Assembly (NCBI RefSeq): GCF_009617895.1
Contig: NZ_BLAW01000001.1
Span: 1,293,001-1,357,000, forward strand
Source of the DNA: Prolixibacter sp. SD074
GTDB taxonomy: Bacteria > Bacteroidota > Bacteroidia > Bacteroidales > Prolixibacteraceae
Length of the DNA: 64,000 bases
Direction of reading: 5' to 3'
Part shown: in pieces, positions 805 to 12,822 of the stretch
How the letters are laid out: every line of letters starts with the position of its first letter
How positions within the stretch are numbered: position 1 is the first letter of the stretch
Position numbers and translations under genes: made by a program
The notes under the pieces: model-generated
What the model was told of the DNA's origin: nothing
Databases searched by the model: none
What the model saw: only the letters and a program-made list of their open reading frames with translations

Positions 805-1095
805 ATGGATTTAGGTAACGTCATAAAAAATATTAGAAAGCAAAAAGGGCTAACTCAAAACGAGTTTGCCTCTTTATGCGGTATTACTCAAACTTATCTT
901 TCACAAATTGAAGGAAACTTGAAAGAACCCACTCTTTCTACTTTAAAAGCAATTAGTGAAAAACTAAATATTCCATTACCAATCTTATTCTTTTTATCAA
1001 TGACTGAAGATGATGTTCAGCCGAATAAAAGGAAGGCGTTTGAAATAGTTAGTCCTTCTGTAAAATCATTCGTAAATGAATTCTTCGCAGTATAA
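805..1095 (+). CDS. XRE-family HTH protein of the retron operon
   Basis: A 96-aa protein with an N-terminal Cro/CI-type helix-turn-helix: residues 5-62 carry the hallmark pattern IRKQKGLTQNEFA, then ITQTYLSQIEG and TLSTLKAISEKLNIP. The C-terminal 30 residues are polar and unassigned. Its last 20 bases overlap the start of the reverse transcriptase gene (1076), implying translational coupling. Known retrons often carry an accessory protein beside the reverse transcriptase, and some described classes use an HTH protein. It could act as the toxic effector, as an msDNA-binding partner or as an operon repressor; the sequence does not decide between these. Confidence 0.85.
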   Translation: MDLGNVIKNIRKQKGLTQNEFASLCGITQTYLSQIEGNLKEPTLSTLKAISEKLNIPLPILFFLSMTEDDVQPNKRKAFEIVSPSVKSFVNEFFAV

Positions 1096-1957
1096 AAAGA
1101 ATGAGTTCAAAAAACTATGTGCAGCTATTGGCTTTAAACCAAAAGATGTTGAGACATTAATCTCCAACATTGATAGCTTTTATAAAGAATGGGTTGAAAA
1201 GAAAACAGATAAGAAAACAGGAGACTTAAAAAAATACAAGGACGGGACAGTAAAGAAAAGAATTATTCGTCCATCATTAATGGAGCTAAAAGCTATTCAA
1301 GGAAATATCAAGAATAAGATTTTAGTTCCCATTCCTCTTCCTGACTGTGTTCACGGTGGCGTAAAAGGACGAAGCAACATAACAAATGCAAAACCTCACC
1401 AGGGGAATAAGTTTCAATTTACAACAGATTTACAAGAGTTTTATCCTAACATTAGTTCAAAAAGAGTGTATGAAACTTTTGTAAAACTGAAATTTTCACC
1501 ACACTTTTCTCATTGGCTGACCAAGTTGACAACTTGGAAGTTTGAATTACCACAAGGAACACCTACAAGCACTCATATTGCGAACCTCGTTTTTCTTGAA
1601 ACAGACTTACAACTAATTGAACTTTGCAAAAAGCACGAAATTACCTACACAAGATATGTGGATGATTTGACTTTTTCATCTCAGAAGGATTTTCGCCCTT
1701 TATTAAATGACATTCTAAAAATTGTGACATCAAACGGTTTCAAACTAAGTTATAGAAAGACAAAGTATAGCGGGAATCAAACCGTGACAGGTATTAGCGT
1801 TTTGTTAAATAAGATTGATGCCCCTGAAAAAATAATAGAAAAGGCGAACATTGAAAAAGAATCCAACTCTGAAGTAAAACCATTTACGAACTATTTAAAT
1901 AACATTAGAAAGACAAATAATCAGACTAAAAAGAAAGCCGACCGCACAACATTTTAG
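1076..1957 (+). CDS. Retron-type reverse transcriptase
   Basis: This 293-aa protein makes msDNA from the upstream RNA. Visible RT motifs in order are: retron region X NAKPH (residues 104-108, fits NAxxH), motif A TDLQEFYPNI (about 117-126) with the first catalytic Asp, motif B LPQGTPTST (158-166), the catalytic box YVDD (194-197) inside RYVDDLTFS, and retron region Y as VTGISV (237-242, fits the VTG motif). Length fits retron RTs (about 300 aa), and there is no maturase or endonuclease domain as in group II introns. The gene overlaps the HTH gene and is followed by a strong terminator. The region is clearly more AT-rich than the chromosomal genes after 13 kb, consistent with transfer. Confidence 0.92.
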   Translation: MNSSQYKKNEFKKLCAAIGFKPKDVETLISNIDSFYKEWVEKKTDKKTGDLKKYKDGTVKKRIIRPSLMELKAIQGNIKNKILVPIPLPDCVHGGVKGRSNITNAKPHQGNKFQFTTDLQEFYPNISSKRVYETFVKLKFSPHFSHWLTKLTTWKFELPQGTPTSTHIANLVFLETDLQLIELCKKHEITYTRYVDDLTFSSQKDFRPLLNDILKIVTSNGFKLSYRKTKYSGNQTVTGISVLLNKIDAPEKIIEKANIEKESNSEVKPFTNYLNNIRKTNNQTKKKADRTTF

Positions 1958-2979: not shown

Positions 2980-2992
2980 AAATAAATTGACA

Positions 2993-4033
2993 ATGAAAAA
3001 CAAAAGAGACTCCGAAATACTAAATTTCATTCTAAAAAATAAAGAATGTTCCTCTAAAGAAATTCATGAAGGAATTTCAGTTTCATTGAGTTATGCAACC
3101 GTTAAAAGAATTTTATTAAATCTTACTTCTCAAAACCTAATTTCAAAAGTCGGACAAGGAAAAGCCACAAAATATATCATCTCTCCTACTTACGAATTAC
3201 TTAAACCTGTTGACATTGAAGAATACTATAAAAAGGAGATTGACGAAAGAACAATCAATGAAAATTTCAATTTAAACCTAATTTCGGAAACCCTTTTAAA
3301 CACAGGACTTTTTACCGAAAATGAGATTATTAAATTGACGGAACTTCAAAATACTTATGAAAAAAATCTTTCTCAACTTTCAGAATTTGAGTACAAAAAA
3401 GAATTGGAACGACTGGCAATCGATTTGAGCTGGAAATCTTCTCAAATTGAAGGAAACACATATTCACTGCTCGAAACTGAAAGATTGCTAAAGGAAAAAG
3501 AAACTGCTTCAGGAAAAACAAAAGAAGAAGCAACGATGCTTCTAAACCATAAAGATGCGATTGATTTTATCATTGAAAATCCTGATTATTTAATTCCGTT
3601 GACTGTTTCAAAAATTGAGGACATTCATAGTATCTTAATCAAAGAATTAGCAATTGACAGGAATATTCGAAAAAGAAGAGTCGGTATTTCAGGGACAAAT
3701 TATCGTCCGTTAGACAATGAATTTCAAATCAGGGAATCATTGATAAATATGTGCGATTTGGTAAACGGCAAAAGCAATATTTTCGAAAAAGCACTTTTGA
3801 CATTGGTGTTAATTTCTTATATCCAACCATTTGTTGATGGGAATAAAAGGACAGCAAGAATTGTAAGTAATGCAATTCTGATGAACAACAAATATTGCCC
3901 GATTTCATTTAGAACTGTTGATTCCGTGGAATATAAAAAGGCGTTGTTACTGTTTTATGAGCAAAATAATATATCTGTGTTCAAAGAGATTTTTATAAAT
4001 CAATTTGAATTTGCAGTGAATACATATTTTTAA
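2993..4033 (+). CDS. Fic-family protein with N-terminal HTH and variant active site
   Basis: This 346-aa protein (ATG at 2993; an upstream in-frame TTG at 2987 is less likely) has a winged-helix DNA-binding domain at about residues 1-70 and a Fic domain at about 140-345. An inhibitory helix motif SSQIEG (149-154) fits [S/T]xxxE[G/N], so it is built like self-inhibited class II Fic enzymes, which transfer AMP to target proteins. The core motif reads QPFVDGNKRTAR (278-289), where the usual catalytic His is Gln; the phosphate-binding DGNKR part is intact. Activity is therefore uncertain: it may be inactive, regulatory, or use different chemistry. The gene stands alone between mobile-element scraps in AT-rich DNA. 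Confidence 0.85.
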   Translation: MKNKRDSEILNFILKNKECSSKEIHEGISVSLSYATVKRILLNLTSQNLISKVGQGKATKYIISPTYELLKPVDIEEYYKKEIDERTINENFNLNLISETLLNTGLFTENEIIKLTELQNTYEKNLSQLSEFEYKKELERLAIDLSWKSSQIEGNTYSLLETERLLKEKETASGKTKEEATMLLNHKDAIDFIIENPDYLIPLTVSKIEDIHSILIKELAIDRNIRKRRVGISGTNYRPLDNEFQIRESLINMCDLVNGKSNIFEKALLTLVLISYIQPFVDGNKRTARIVSNAILMNNKYCPISFRTVDSVEYKKALLLFYEQNNISVFKEIFINQFEFAVNTYF

Positions 4034-11717: not shown

Positions 11718-11791
11718 GGTCCCATAGCTCAGTTGGTTAGATCACCTGACTCATAATCAAGGAGTCCTTGGTTCAAGCCCAGGTGGGTACC
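11718..11791 (+). tRNA. tRNA-Met(CAT), probably degenerate
   Basis: A 74-nt sequence with the layout of a Bacteroidota elongator tRNA-Met: GGTCCCA acceptor, D arm AGCTCAGTTGGTTAGA, anticodon loop CTCATAA and T arm CTTGG/CCAGG around TTCAAGC. Three deviations stand out: T replaces the usual G after TTAGA, the 3' anticodon strand reads TCAAGG where TCAGG is expected, and the acceptor 3' strand has an extra T (TGGGTACC rather than TGGGACC). These would weaken or bulge both stems, so it may be a dead copy. It directly abuts integrase remnant B. Confidence 0.65.
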
Positions 11792-11792
11792 T

Positions 11793-12098
11793 TTTCCTCC
11801 CGCGCCTTCAAAAAGGTAATGCCCGGGTTTGTACTTTTTGTAATAATCCCTTAAAACAGAAAGTAAAACCGGCGATAGCGGCACTTTACGTTGTTTCAGC
11901 CCTTTGCCTTCCTGGATGTTTACCTGCATCCGCCGGCTGTCAATGTCGGTAAGTTTGATGTTTACACTCCCTGTTCCGGGTCTTTTTTGCAAAAGCTACT
12001 GTAACCGGCAATGTGCCACCAGTAACTTTTACGGGTCCTTTCACTTAGATTCCGTAAAACCGCTTCCTGTTCAAATCTTTTTTTAAATTTGTCATCAT
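11793..12098 (-). pseudogene. Tyrosine recombinase remnant B
   Basis: A second copy of the integrase seen at 2221-2697, almost identical at both its N-terminal part (ERTRKSYWWHI) and the NIKLTDIDSRRMQV segment. About 120 codons between FCK and SVNIKLTD are deleted (junction near 11970). It extends further than copy A at the C-terminal side (KQRKVPLSPVLLSVLRDYY to LFEGAGGKG) and is cut at the tRNA-like sequence. The upstream ATG codons are again out of frame by one base at a run of seven A. No catalytic His-X-X-Arg or Tyr is left. Confidence 0.75.
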
Positions 12099-12159
12099 AC
12101 GTTATTTTTATTATAGTTCTTAAAAATAGACTTGTAAAGTCGTTTTAGTCAGCGATAAG

Positions 12160-12179
12160 CAGAAGGAAATCACCTTCTG
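12160..12179 (+). repeat. Hairpin preceding the 21-bp repeat array
   Basis: CAGAAGG and CCTTCTG form a perfect 7-bp stem around AAATCA. The last stem base is two bases before repeat unit 1 at 12181. Confidence 0.6.
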
Positions 12180-12180
12180 G

Positions 12181-12369
12181 TCGGAAAAATGCAACTGTAA
12201 GTCCGAAAAACGGCCATGTTAATCGGAAAAATGCATTTGTAAGGTTGTAAAATGGAGATGTAAGCATGGAAAACCCATCTGCAACTCCGAAAAAGGGAAA
12301 TGTAAGTCGGAAAAACGCAATTGTAAGTCTGGAAAACAGGACTGTAAAAGCGAATTACCAATTTGTAAT
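12181..12369. repeat. Tandem array of nine 21-bp units
   Basis: Nine units with exact 21-base spacing follow the pattern TCGGAAAAA-N6-TGTAAG. The six central bases differ in nearly every unit; units 4, 5, 8 and 9 are more diverged. Read on the plus strand the units encode heptapeptides of the form SEKxxCK with Cys at the same place in all nine, but there is a stop in unit 2 and no start codon. Read on the minus strand they give VFRTYSC-like heptads, open for 63 residues. The array ends 27 bases before a 99-aa gene. It may be a remnant coding repeat, a structured leader or a mobile repeat. Confidence 0.8.
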
Positions 12370-12396
12370 TTATTATAAACCTTTAAAAATTAAATT

Positions 12397-12696
12397 ATGG
12401 CATCAAGGACCAAACTTACCGACGCTTCAACCGATACCGACATACAAACAAAACTTTCAAGATTGAAAATATCCATAGACGACTTGAACGCAGCCAATAC
12501 CCTGATAACTGAATTAGAAGCATCAAGGGCAGTTTACTTGAAAGAAAAGGGAGAGTCTCAGGATGCAACCAAGATAAAAGATGCCGCAATTGGCAAGATA
12601 GATGAGTGGATGAGCGAGTTTTATGCAGTAGCACGTATTGGATTGGAAGATAATCCACAGCTATTAGAAGCCTTGGGCAAAACTGTGAAAAGTTAG
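12397..12696 (+). CDS. Small helical protein of unknown function
   Basis: A 99-aa, fully helical, soluble protein with no signal peptide; it starts 27 bases after the 21-bp repeat array. Its C-terminus (IDEWMSEFYAVARIGLEDNP, then LLEALGKTVKS) looks like the conserved tail of Bacteroidota proteins of roughly 150-200 aa found next to simple repeats, so it may be a shortened member. That family has no function I know of. The protein at 58929-59465 has a similar composition and also sits among repeats. The reading frame has good codon structure and no internal damage. Confidence 0.65.
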   Translation: MASRTKLTDASTDTDIQTKLSRLKISIDDLNAANTLITELEASRAVYLKEKGESQDATKIKDAAIGKIDEWMSEFYAVARIGLEDNPQLLEALGKTVKS

Positions 12697-12788
12697 TGGT
12701 ATTGCCCACACTATTTGCAAGCACATCCAGCAAACCCCACAGGCCAACGCCAGACCAAAATTTGCGGGAAGAGCTTACAAAGCCAGCC

Positions 12789-12822
12789 CAATTGTGTTTT
12801 AATTCGTGTTGGGCTTAACCGT
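12789..12822 (+). repeat. 34-bp direct repeat, right copy
   Basis: Exact copy of 2048-2081. Here the arms AGCCCAA (12785-12791) and TTGGGCT (12809-12815) make an inverted repeat that the left copy only half preserves. The right edge joins the stump of a hydrolase gene. Confidence 0.75.

Follow-up and report, generated by a model that had tools for sequence, protein, structure and literature searches.

Tandem arrays spaced by two or four helical turns precede genes of the PQLLE and DUF6261 families in Bacteroidota

The window (the whole stretch of 64,000 nucleotides that was analysed) belongs to a genome assembled as one contig, and the module described here is chromosomal. It consists of a shortened gene and a tandem array directly in front of it, with the following features:

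12088..12119, plus strand: weak promoter-like pair TTTG-N20-TATAGTTC, 5′ of the array, found by eye
12160..12179, plus strand: hairpin CAGAAGG-6-CCTTCTG with a 7-bp stem, 5′ of array unit 1
12181..12369, plus strand: array of nine 21-bp units, the last one degenerate, consensus about TCGGAAAAA-N6-TGTAAG
12181, 12202, 12223, 12244, 12265, 12286, 12307, 12328 and 12349, plus strand: starts of the units of the 21-bp array
12397..12696, plus strand: shortened PQLLE-family gene, 99 aa, matching the NF052641 profile
12423..12432, plus strand: junction of an in-frame deletion, from the alignment with a twin gene

The exact 21-bp register of nine units given in the preliminary description was confirmed for 12181-12369, apart from the degeneracy of the ninth unit, and none of 500 Markov (dinucleotide) shuffles was as periodic. 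Self-identity was 0.63, 0.67 and 0.62 at lags of 21, 42 and 63 bp (12181-12347), the best local identity in the 700 bp 5′ of the gene was 0.69 at lag 42 (z = 11.1), and the Tandem Repeats Finder score was 125. The perfect hairpin reported in front of the array is there, and the ATG lies 27 bp past the last unit, as had been stated. The unit pattern that had been proposed, a constant block and TGTAAG around six variable bases, is exact in three of the nine units (12181, 12223 and 12307), but not in the other six. The consensus used for the promoter-like pair is TTTG / TAnnTTTG. At the gathering score, the sole Rfam match in the whole window was a tRNA.

PQLLE is the NCBIfam family NF052641, a named family with no function assigned. 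The window protein matches its profile with 111.3 bits over positions 125-211 of 211, and a Pfam search with the 99 residues returned no family at E ≤ 1. The genome also encodes a 219-aa twin (851-852 kb; start codon on the minus strand, ATG at G000:C1:852006), which scores 258.7 bits, so that both copies stand above the curated cut-off of 80. Upstream DNA of the twin is nearly identical to that of the window gene, with one 21-bp unit more in its array; the hairpin at 12160-12179 is common to the two, while the nine other upstreams aligned from the ortholog group do not have it. Compared with the twin, 360 bp of coding sequence are missing from the window copy, in frame, and the twin carries a near-identical 10-bp word at each end of the stretch that was deleted. 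Judged from this alignment, the window gene is a decayed (broken) duplicate of its twin, and its intact relatives are the proper object of study.

PQLLE matches at E ≤ 0.001 were found in 35 of 100 genomes sampled from the family (25 over the cut-off), 15 of 149 sampled from the order (9 over the cut-off) and 15 of 395 sampled from the phylum (6 over the cut-off), with up to 18 matches listed for a single genome; scanning named genomes yielded 33 loci. The survey set comprised 101 distinct near-full-length members, drawn from part of the matches listed and mostly from the best ones; one of them had a short upstream, which left 100 upstreams, 85 of them nonredundant. Periodicity was significant (z > 3) in 69 of these 85, at 20-22 or 41-43 bp in all except one, whose period was 60 bp (three times 20). 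The best lag was 42 bp in 32 upstreams, 21 in 29, 41 in 6, 20 in 5 and another value in 13. Distant members have the period in common while the array sequences are unrelated, and the summed autocorrelation of an earlier set of 44 upstreams had sharp peaks at 21, 42, 63 and 84 bp.

When 76 upstreams of other genes at the same loci were used as control, the best lag was 21 or 42 bp in 8, compared with a best lag of 21, 41 or 42 bp in 42 of 51 PQLLE upstreams. At z > 4, arrays were found upstream of 62 of 85 genes and in the 700 bp downstream of 3 of 80. In a tree of 78 PQLLE proteins most branches have arrays, and the members with a 20-bp period group together (5 changes; equally low in 1 of 500 shuffles). 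No significant array was detected in 16 of the 85 upstreams, and paralogs of the window's own genome without one are L038, L039 and L116 (the last a redundant row). Among 16 more distant relatives inspected by eye, six have clear 21/42-bp arrays (L053, L130, L141, L179, L209 and L211), and in the other ten the array is weak or absent. The search proposed in the preliminary description thus had a positive outcome: the PQLLE family follows such arrays in other Bacteroidota, and the search then reached a second family, DUF6261. Copies scattered with no linked gene, the pattern that would have spoken for neutral satellite DNA, were not what was found, though some arrays without a gene exist.

The periodicity scan covered 1.664 Mb, of which 1.264 Mb came from the genome of the window, the window itself among them, and 0.4 Mb from a sister genome, several pieces of which were picked for holding family members. 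It gave 47 periodic places, 28 of them with lags of 20-22, 41-43, 62 or 64 bp; 13 of these 28 could be assigned by position to a PQLLE-like or DUF6261 gene (one 2 kb away), some of the remaining 15 resemble family arrays but have no gene, and the others are unassigned. Lag 66 formed a separate class with 9 of the 47 places. The proteins behind two new arrays belong to DUF6261 (Pfam PF19775; 87.8 and 75.5 bits, gathering score 27), a family to which the window protein had no match in the Pfam search. From 42 DUF6261 loci, four of them without a usable ORF, 38 members and 36 nonredundant upstreams were obtained, of which 32 were periodic at z > 3, 31 of these at 40-43 bp. The best lag was 41 bp in 17, 42 in 16, 43 in 1 and another value in 2, and the summed autocorrelation had no signal at 20-21 bp. 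At z > 4, arrays were found in 29 of 36 upstream and 3 of 36 downstream regions, none of the latter at lags of 40-43 bp. In hhalign the two families match with a probability of 5.3 for the first set and of 14.7 for the second (E = 0.0018, colinear), and by profile they are not clearly homologous. Both structure models, however, are all-helical, with second-half helices at matching residues.

The 62 PQLLE arrays with z > 4 have 5-15 units of 20-21 bp or 3-4 units of 41 bp and end 3-340 bp before the ATG. Inner unit junctions are exact by construction, as ungapped arrays were taken; at the array ends 10 further units are joined with a shift of 1-5 bp. Cyclic alignment of 53 PQLLE arrays revealed a common oriented core, roughly [TG]NAG[GC]AA, which is clearest in closer relatives; in the window's ortholog group two boxes, GGAAAA and TGTAA, lie about 10 bp apart. 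The information of the core was 5.53, versus 2.76-3.06 in ten sets with unit positions permuted, and four of the 53 arrays flipped when either strand was allowed. Along the 21-bp unit, the autocorrelation of conservation in 48 PQLLE arrays had its minimum at 5-6 bp (z = -8.0 at 5 bp; -0.32 at 6 bp, z = -8.5) and rose to +0.065 at 10 bp (z = 3.7). With just one conserved block the minimum would fall at 10 bp, and thus the observed minimum and the following rise suggest, for PQLLE, contacts made once per helical turn, as though the array were read from one side of the helix. The same autocorrelation gave no 10-bp rhythm for DUF6261 units. An alternation of A and B units (42 bp) was rejected as a general rule, since it reached p < 0.05 in just 12 of 48 arrays.

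Comparison of orthologs indicated how the arrays change. Orthologous arrays align unit by unit, with an identity of 0.66-0.99 for units of the same index and 0.53-0.59 for units of other indices. Divergence of the core is below that of fourfold sites in seven of eight ortholog pairs, narrowly so in one of them (0.13 versus 0.16), and the eighth pair is almost identical; a comparison of core with non-core positions is partly circular, because the units compared had also served to define the core columns, and that with fourfold sites is less so. L025 and L091 encode proteins that are 90% identical, and their array units are different, with the AGCAA core and the register kept. Whole units are gained or lost between the window and its twin and between L091 and L092. 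Array similarity and protein similarity were correlated over 1035 pairs (r = 0.59) and among pairs at 30-60% protein identity (r = 0.44), and in neither case was the value reached in 500 permutations, although joint inheritance alone would also give such a correlation. Arrays within one genome differ widely in sequence.

Could the arrays be neutral satellite DNA, or the coding array that the preliminary description had offered as one of two explanations? Gain and loss of whole units would fit the former, and the Cys codon at the same place in 9 of 9 window units, which was described correctly, would fit the latter, but the same frame is interrupted by a TAA stop in unit 2 (12220-12222). A heptad repeat was rejected as a candidate, because periods of 20 and 41 bp break any reading frame; as 31 of 62 arrays have stops in every frame and none of the 62 continues into its gene, we conclude that the arrays do not code. 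Neither satellite nor coding DNA would explain a core that has diverged less than fourfold sites in all but one of eight pairs, or a period restricted to 20-22 or 41-43 bp in 68 of 69 PQLLE upstreams, and we give the two together hardly any weight.

The second explanation, an array that binds a protein as RNA or DNA, fared better: a candidate nucleic-acid-binding array is supported by the comparisons, and DNA fits better than RNA. If RNA were the active form, the array would be transcribed as a leader, with units of 21 or 41 nt, and bound by the protein encoded downstream, similar to type III toxin-antitoxin modules. Gene order and the single orientation of the arrays agree with this, as does a plus strand rich in purines (0.62; 0.67 in 38 closer arrays), and type III modules likewise keep unit length while the sequence differs, as far as the relevant part of PMC5086642 goes. 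Moreover, the array may be transcribed: the promoter-like hexamer TAnnTTT[GA] was counted 18 times within the 120 bp preceding the 62 PQLLE arrays versus 8.5 expected, and is at chance in the gap between array and gene (11 versus 12.1). The full two-part promoter consensus is weak (8 of 61 upstream regions versus 4.5 expected), the excess being that of the -7 half alone, and one ortholog group has a TATATTTA block just 5′ of the array. The strongest point for RNA is a terminator-like hairpin in the gap of 5 of 62 PQLLE loci versus 0.6 expected; the remaining 57 have none, and DUF6261 gaps have such sites at the expected level (2 of 31 versus 1.9).

Folding argues in the other direction. In a model without pseudoknots PQLLE arrays fold like shuffles (z = -0.11), and DUF6261 arrays fold slightly better than shuffles with both strands alike (z = -1.36 for plus, -1.46 for minus; plus strand more stable in 11 of 31). 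GU mismatches are rarer than AC mismatches (22 versus 33 and 8 versus 19). Hairpins in a plus-strand RNA are not supported, and by these pseudoknot-free tests the array does not appear to be a structured leader RNA. A 10-bp rhythm has no reason in single-stranded RNA, and PADLOC gave no convincing match (one at E = 0.02 in one of the two proteins was not taken as real). On balance an action as RNA seems unlikely to us.

A DNA site could also serve a protein of the host, such as a silencer, a nucleoid protein or an activator that tunes the gene, with the encoded protein having nothing to do with the array. The encoded proteins are acidic (median pI 5.30 for PQLLE, 81 of 100 below 6; 5.04 for DUF6261, 33 of 38 below 6), and arrays without a gene exist, both of which would suit a host reader. 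Such a common reader would hardly follow arrays that differ so widely within one genome, and the spacing lies upstream of the two families, is lacking downstream of them and is uncommon before other genes of these loci (8 of 76); we think there is little chance that this is the explanation.

Arrays without a gene bear also on whether the array is a dispersed or mobile repeat of the REP kind, placed by chance before these genes and spreading with them. Arrays of the L307 type occur without a gene at two further places (G000:C1:2338872-2339147 and 2608623-2608949) and one of the L312 type at G000:C1:336684-336771, all far from the nine DUF6261 matches of that genome; they may be relics, or additional places at which the modules act. 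Among 66 loci no neighbour gene was conserved beyond one clade and groups of three loci. The most frequent neighbour, at 6 of 66 loci (L167, L171, L185, L188, L189 and L192), is transposase-like; it had no Pfam match at E ≤ 0.001 and is presumably of the IS200/RAYT kind. This neighbour is confined to the clade with 20-bp arrays, though, the L025-type array occurs at one place only, and the period is common to unrelated sequences, so a mobile repeat is in our view quite improbable.

Some loci deserve mention for themselves. At G000:C1:2139358 there is a 21-bp array with a GTAGCAA core and no family gene adjoining. At L284 a transposase-like pair, which we take to resemble IS3-type transposases, is flanked by two parts of one 21-bp array (G566:C1:12953 and 14692); this suggests that the array was split by insertion. 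L071, L072, L073, L056 and L077-L079 form one ortholog group with proteins about 82% identical in distant genera; the array lies behind an ORF whose end is Cys-rich and GDCCVYCSYGSVKCPSIQ-like, a cation-efflux-like gene is common to three of the loci, and the group was likely transferred as part of an island.

The array pitch is conserved while the letters are free, and therefore the partner should have a fixed step; since many different arrays coexist in one genome, each module should bring its own, private partner. The encoded protein is the natural candidate. The PQLLE structure model is rod-shaped, with two halves that resemble each other, 56-residue helices and no strand (pLDDT 94.3, pTM 0.81), and several basic residues are conserved (K90 in 62 of 78 proteins, K93 in 71, K181 in 75 and R200 in 68). 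Foldseek gave no match at E ≤ 0.001 for either the PQLLE or the DUF6261 model, no DNA-binding fold was recognised by the fold searches with the two models, and the best VIA score (Z = 9.4, PQLLE) may with such long helices mean just a common arrangement. The proteins were not transposases by any search made. One query protein found no relative among 72,556 plasmid records, and one query each found none in viral contigs and phage records.

Putting these data together, we propose a module of two parts. One is a gene whose product is all-helical, elongated and duplicated within itself; the other is an array in fixed orientation immediately 5′ of that gene, with units two helical turns apart in PQLLE (20-21 bp) and four turns apart in DUF6261 (41-42 bp). 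As a DNA site acting in cis, the array would be contacted on a single face of the helix, and the module's own protein would bind to it cooperatively as a regular lattice; this lattice might control the module's promoter and, where arrays lack a gene, have effects elsewhere. The identity of the partner with the encoded protein, the formation of a lattice and any effect on expression or the cell are all three inferred. We hold this as our working explanation, plausible but somewhat short of probable. Conserved basic columns of PQLLE such as K93 and K181 are in its favour. Against it stand the acidity of the proteins, the absence of a recognised DNA-binding fold, the 16 of 85 PQLLE upstreams without a significant array, the missing 10-bp rhythm in DUF6261 and the sufficiency of joint inheritance for the correlation; in addition, the promoter-like hexamers lie before and not within the arrays, which leaves room for a role as RNA.

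A wider form of the proposal is that PQLLE and DUF6261 constitute a superfamily of self-addressing DNA-lattice modules, each with a private array sequence, a pitch of two or four turns and no cross-talk. The rod-like protein would assemble along one face of the DNA and read its own array and a few without a gene, so that many modules could coexist in one chromosome, the pitch being conserved while the address evolves. This we regard as possible, though doubtful.

Several known systems combine direct repeats with a gene. In ParMRC (parC) and TubZRC (tubC) direct repeats lie upstream of the genes, the repeats of these partition centromeres differ between families with matched binding specificity, their length is 20 bp in pSK41 and 10 and 11 bp in others, and ParMRC joins a motor gene with a ribbon-helix-helix centromere-binding protein, according to the sections of PMC9426499 and PMC5016525 that deal with them. 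Upstream direct repeats with family-specific sequences are thus shared, as far as those sections go. The PQLLE module, however, is one gene with no recurrent ParM- or TubZ-like neighbour (at most 6 of 66 loci, in one clade), its protein is modelled with helices only (pLDDT 94.3) and not as ribbon-helix-helix, and the modules are chromosomal and multi-copy, with no plasmid match for one query. In type III toxin-antitoxin modules structured RNA repeats (pseudoknots) neutralise an endoribonuclease toxin encoded downstream. As described in the part of PMC5086642 concerned, unit length is kept while the sequence differs, a Rho-independent terminator lies between array and gene, and units are 34-36 nt in three ToxIN-family members. 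ToxIN, CptIN and TenpIN resemble our modules, on that description, in having a repeat array directly before one protein gene. PQLLE and DUF6261 units are 21 or 41-42 bp instead of those 34-36 nt, terminator-like sites are present in the few gaps counted above, the arrays are without plus-strand structure in a fold model that lacks pseudoknots, and the protein model is all-helical. We file the modules under neither heading, because defining features of both were tested and not found; a DNA lattice of the centromere type is nevertheless the leading analogy.

Plasmid iterons are direct repeats of about 20 bp beside a gene, carried by the replicon whose copy number they control, and our arrays share the repeat arrangement. 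The PQLLE module differs in being chromosomal, with no plasmid match (one query) and no Pfam match to a replication protein, and PQLLE and DUF6261 arrays keep their period across unrelated sequences. REP elements with RAYT transposases are short repeats linked to a gene with copies elsewhere, which holds for PQLLE and DUF6261 arrays too; ours, however, are strict tandem arrays of two or four turns, no search showed the proteins to be transposases, and linkage to a transposase-like gene is limited to the six loci of one clade.

Searches of the open-licence PMC literature gave no paper on the arrays or on PQLLE and one unrelated mention of DUF6261. A helix-phased spacing kept while the letters change points to an undescribed protein-DNA address system. 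PQLLE and DUF6261, both without assigned function, would gain a common candidate physical partner, the DNA array. If each protein reads its own array, the modules would form a natural set of dozens of protein-DNA pairs, possibly orthogonal and each with its own ruler, and a model for DNA recognition by lattice proteins and for the separation of paralogous modules. Should RNA be what is read, they would be a kind resembling toxin-antitoxin systems but built around another protein fold. In both cases experiments can directly address a DUF and a family that has no name.

The surroundings of the window module contain further elements. Its flanks, 12030-12108 and 12770-12822 (also 2571-2707 and 2029-2081), have about 20 other matches each in the genome, several at regular spacing and adjoining tyrosine-recombinase fragments, and the second flank (12770-12822) has an inverted repeat around GCCCAATTG..CGTGTTGGGC. 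At 11718-11992 a tRNA-Met (CAT) lies beside a C-terminal tyrosine-recombinase fragment on the other strand. At 805-1957 (plus strand) a small helix-turn-helix ORF (PF01381, 59.8 bits) overlaps a reverse-transcriptase ORF (PF00078, 52.5 bits), a pair that we assume to be retron-like, and 2987-4033 (plus strand) encodes a Fic/DOC-family protein with an N-terminal penicillinase-repressor-like domain.
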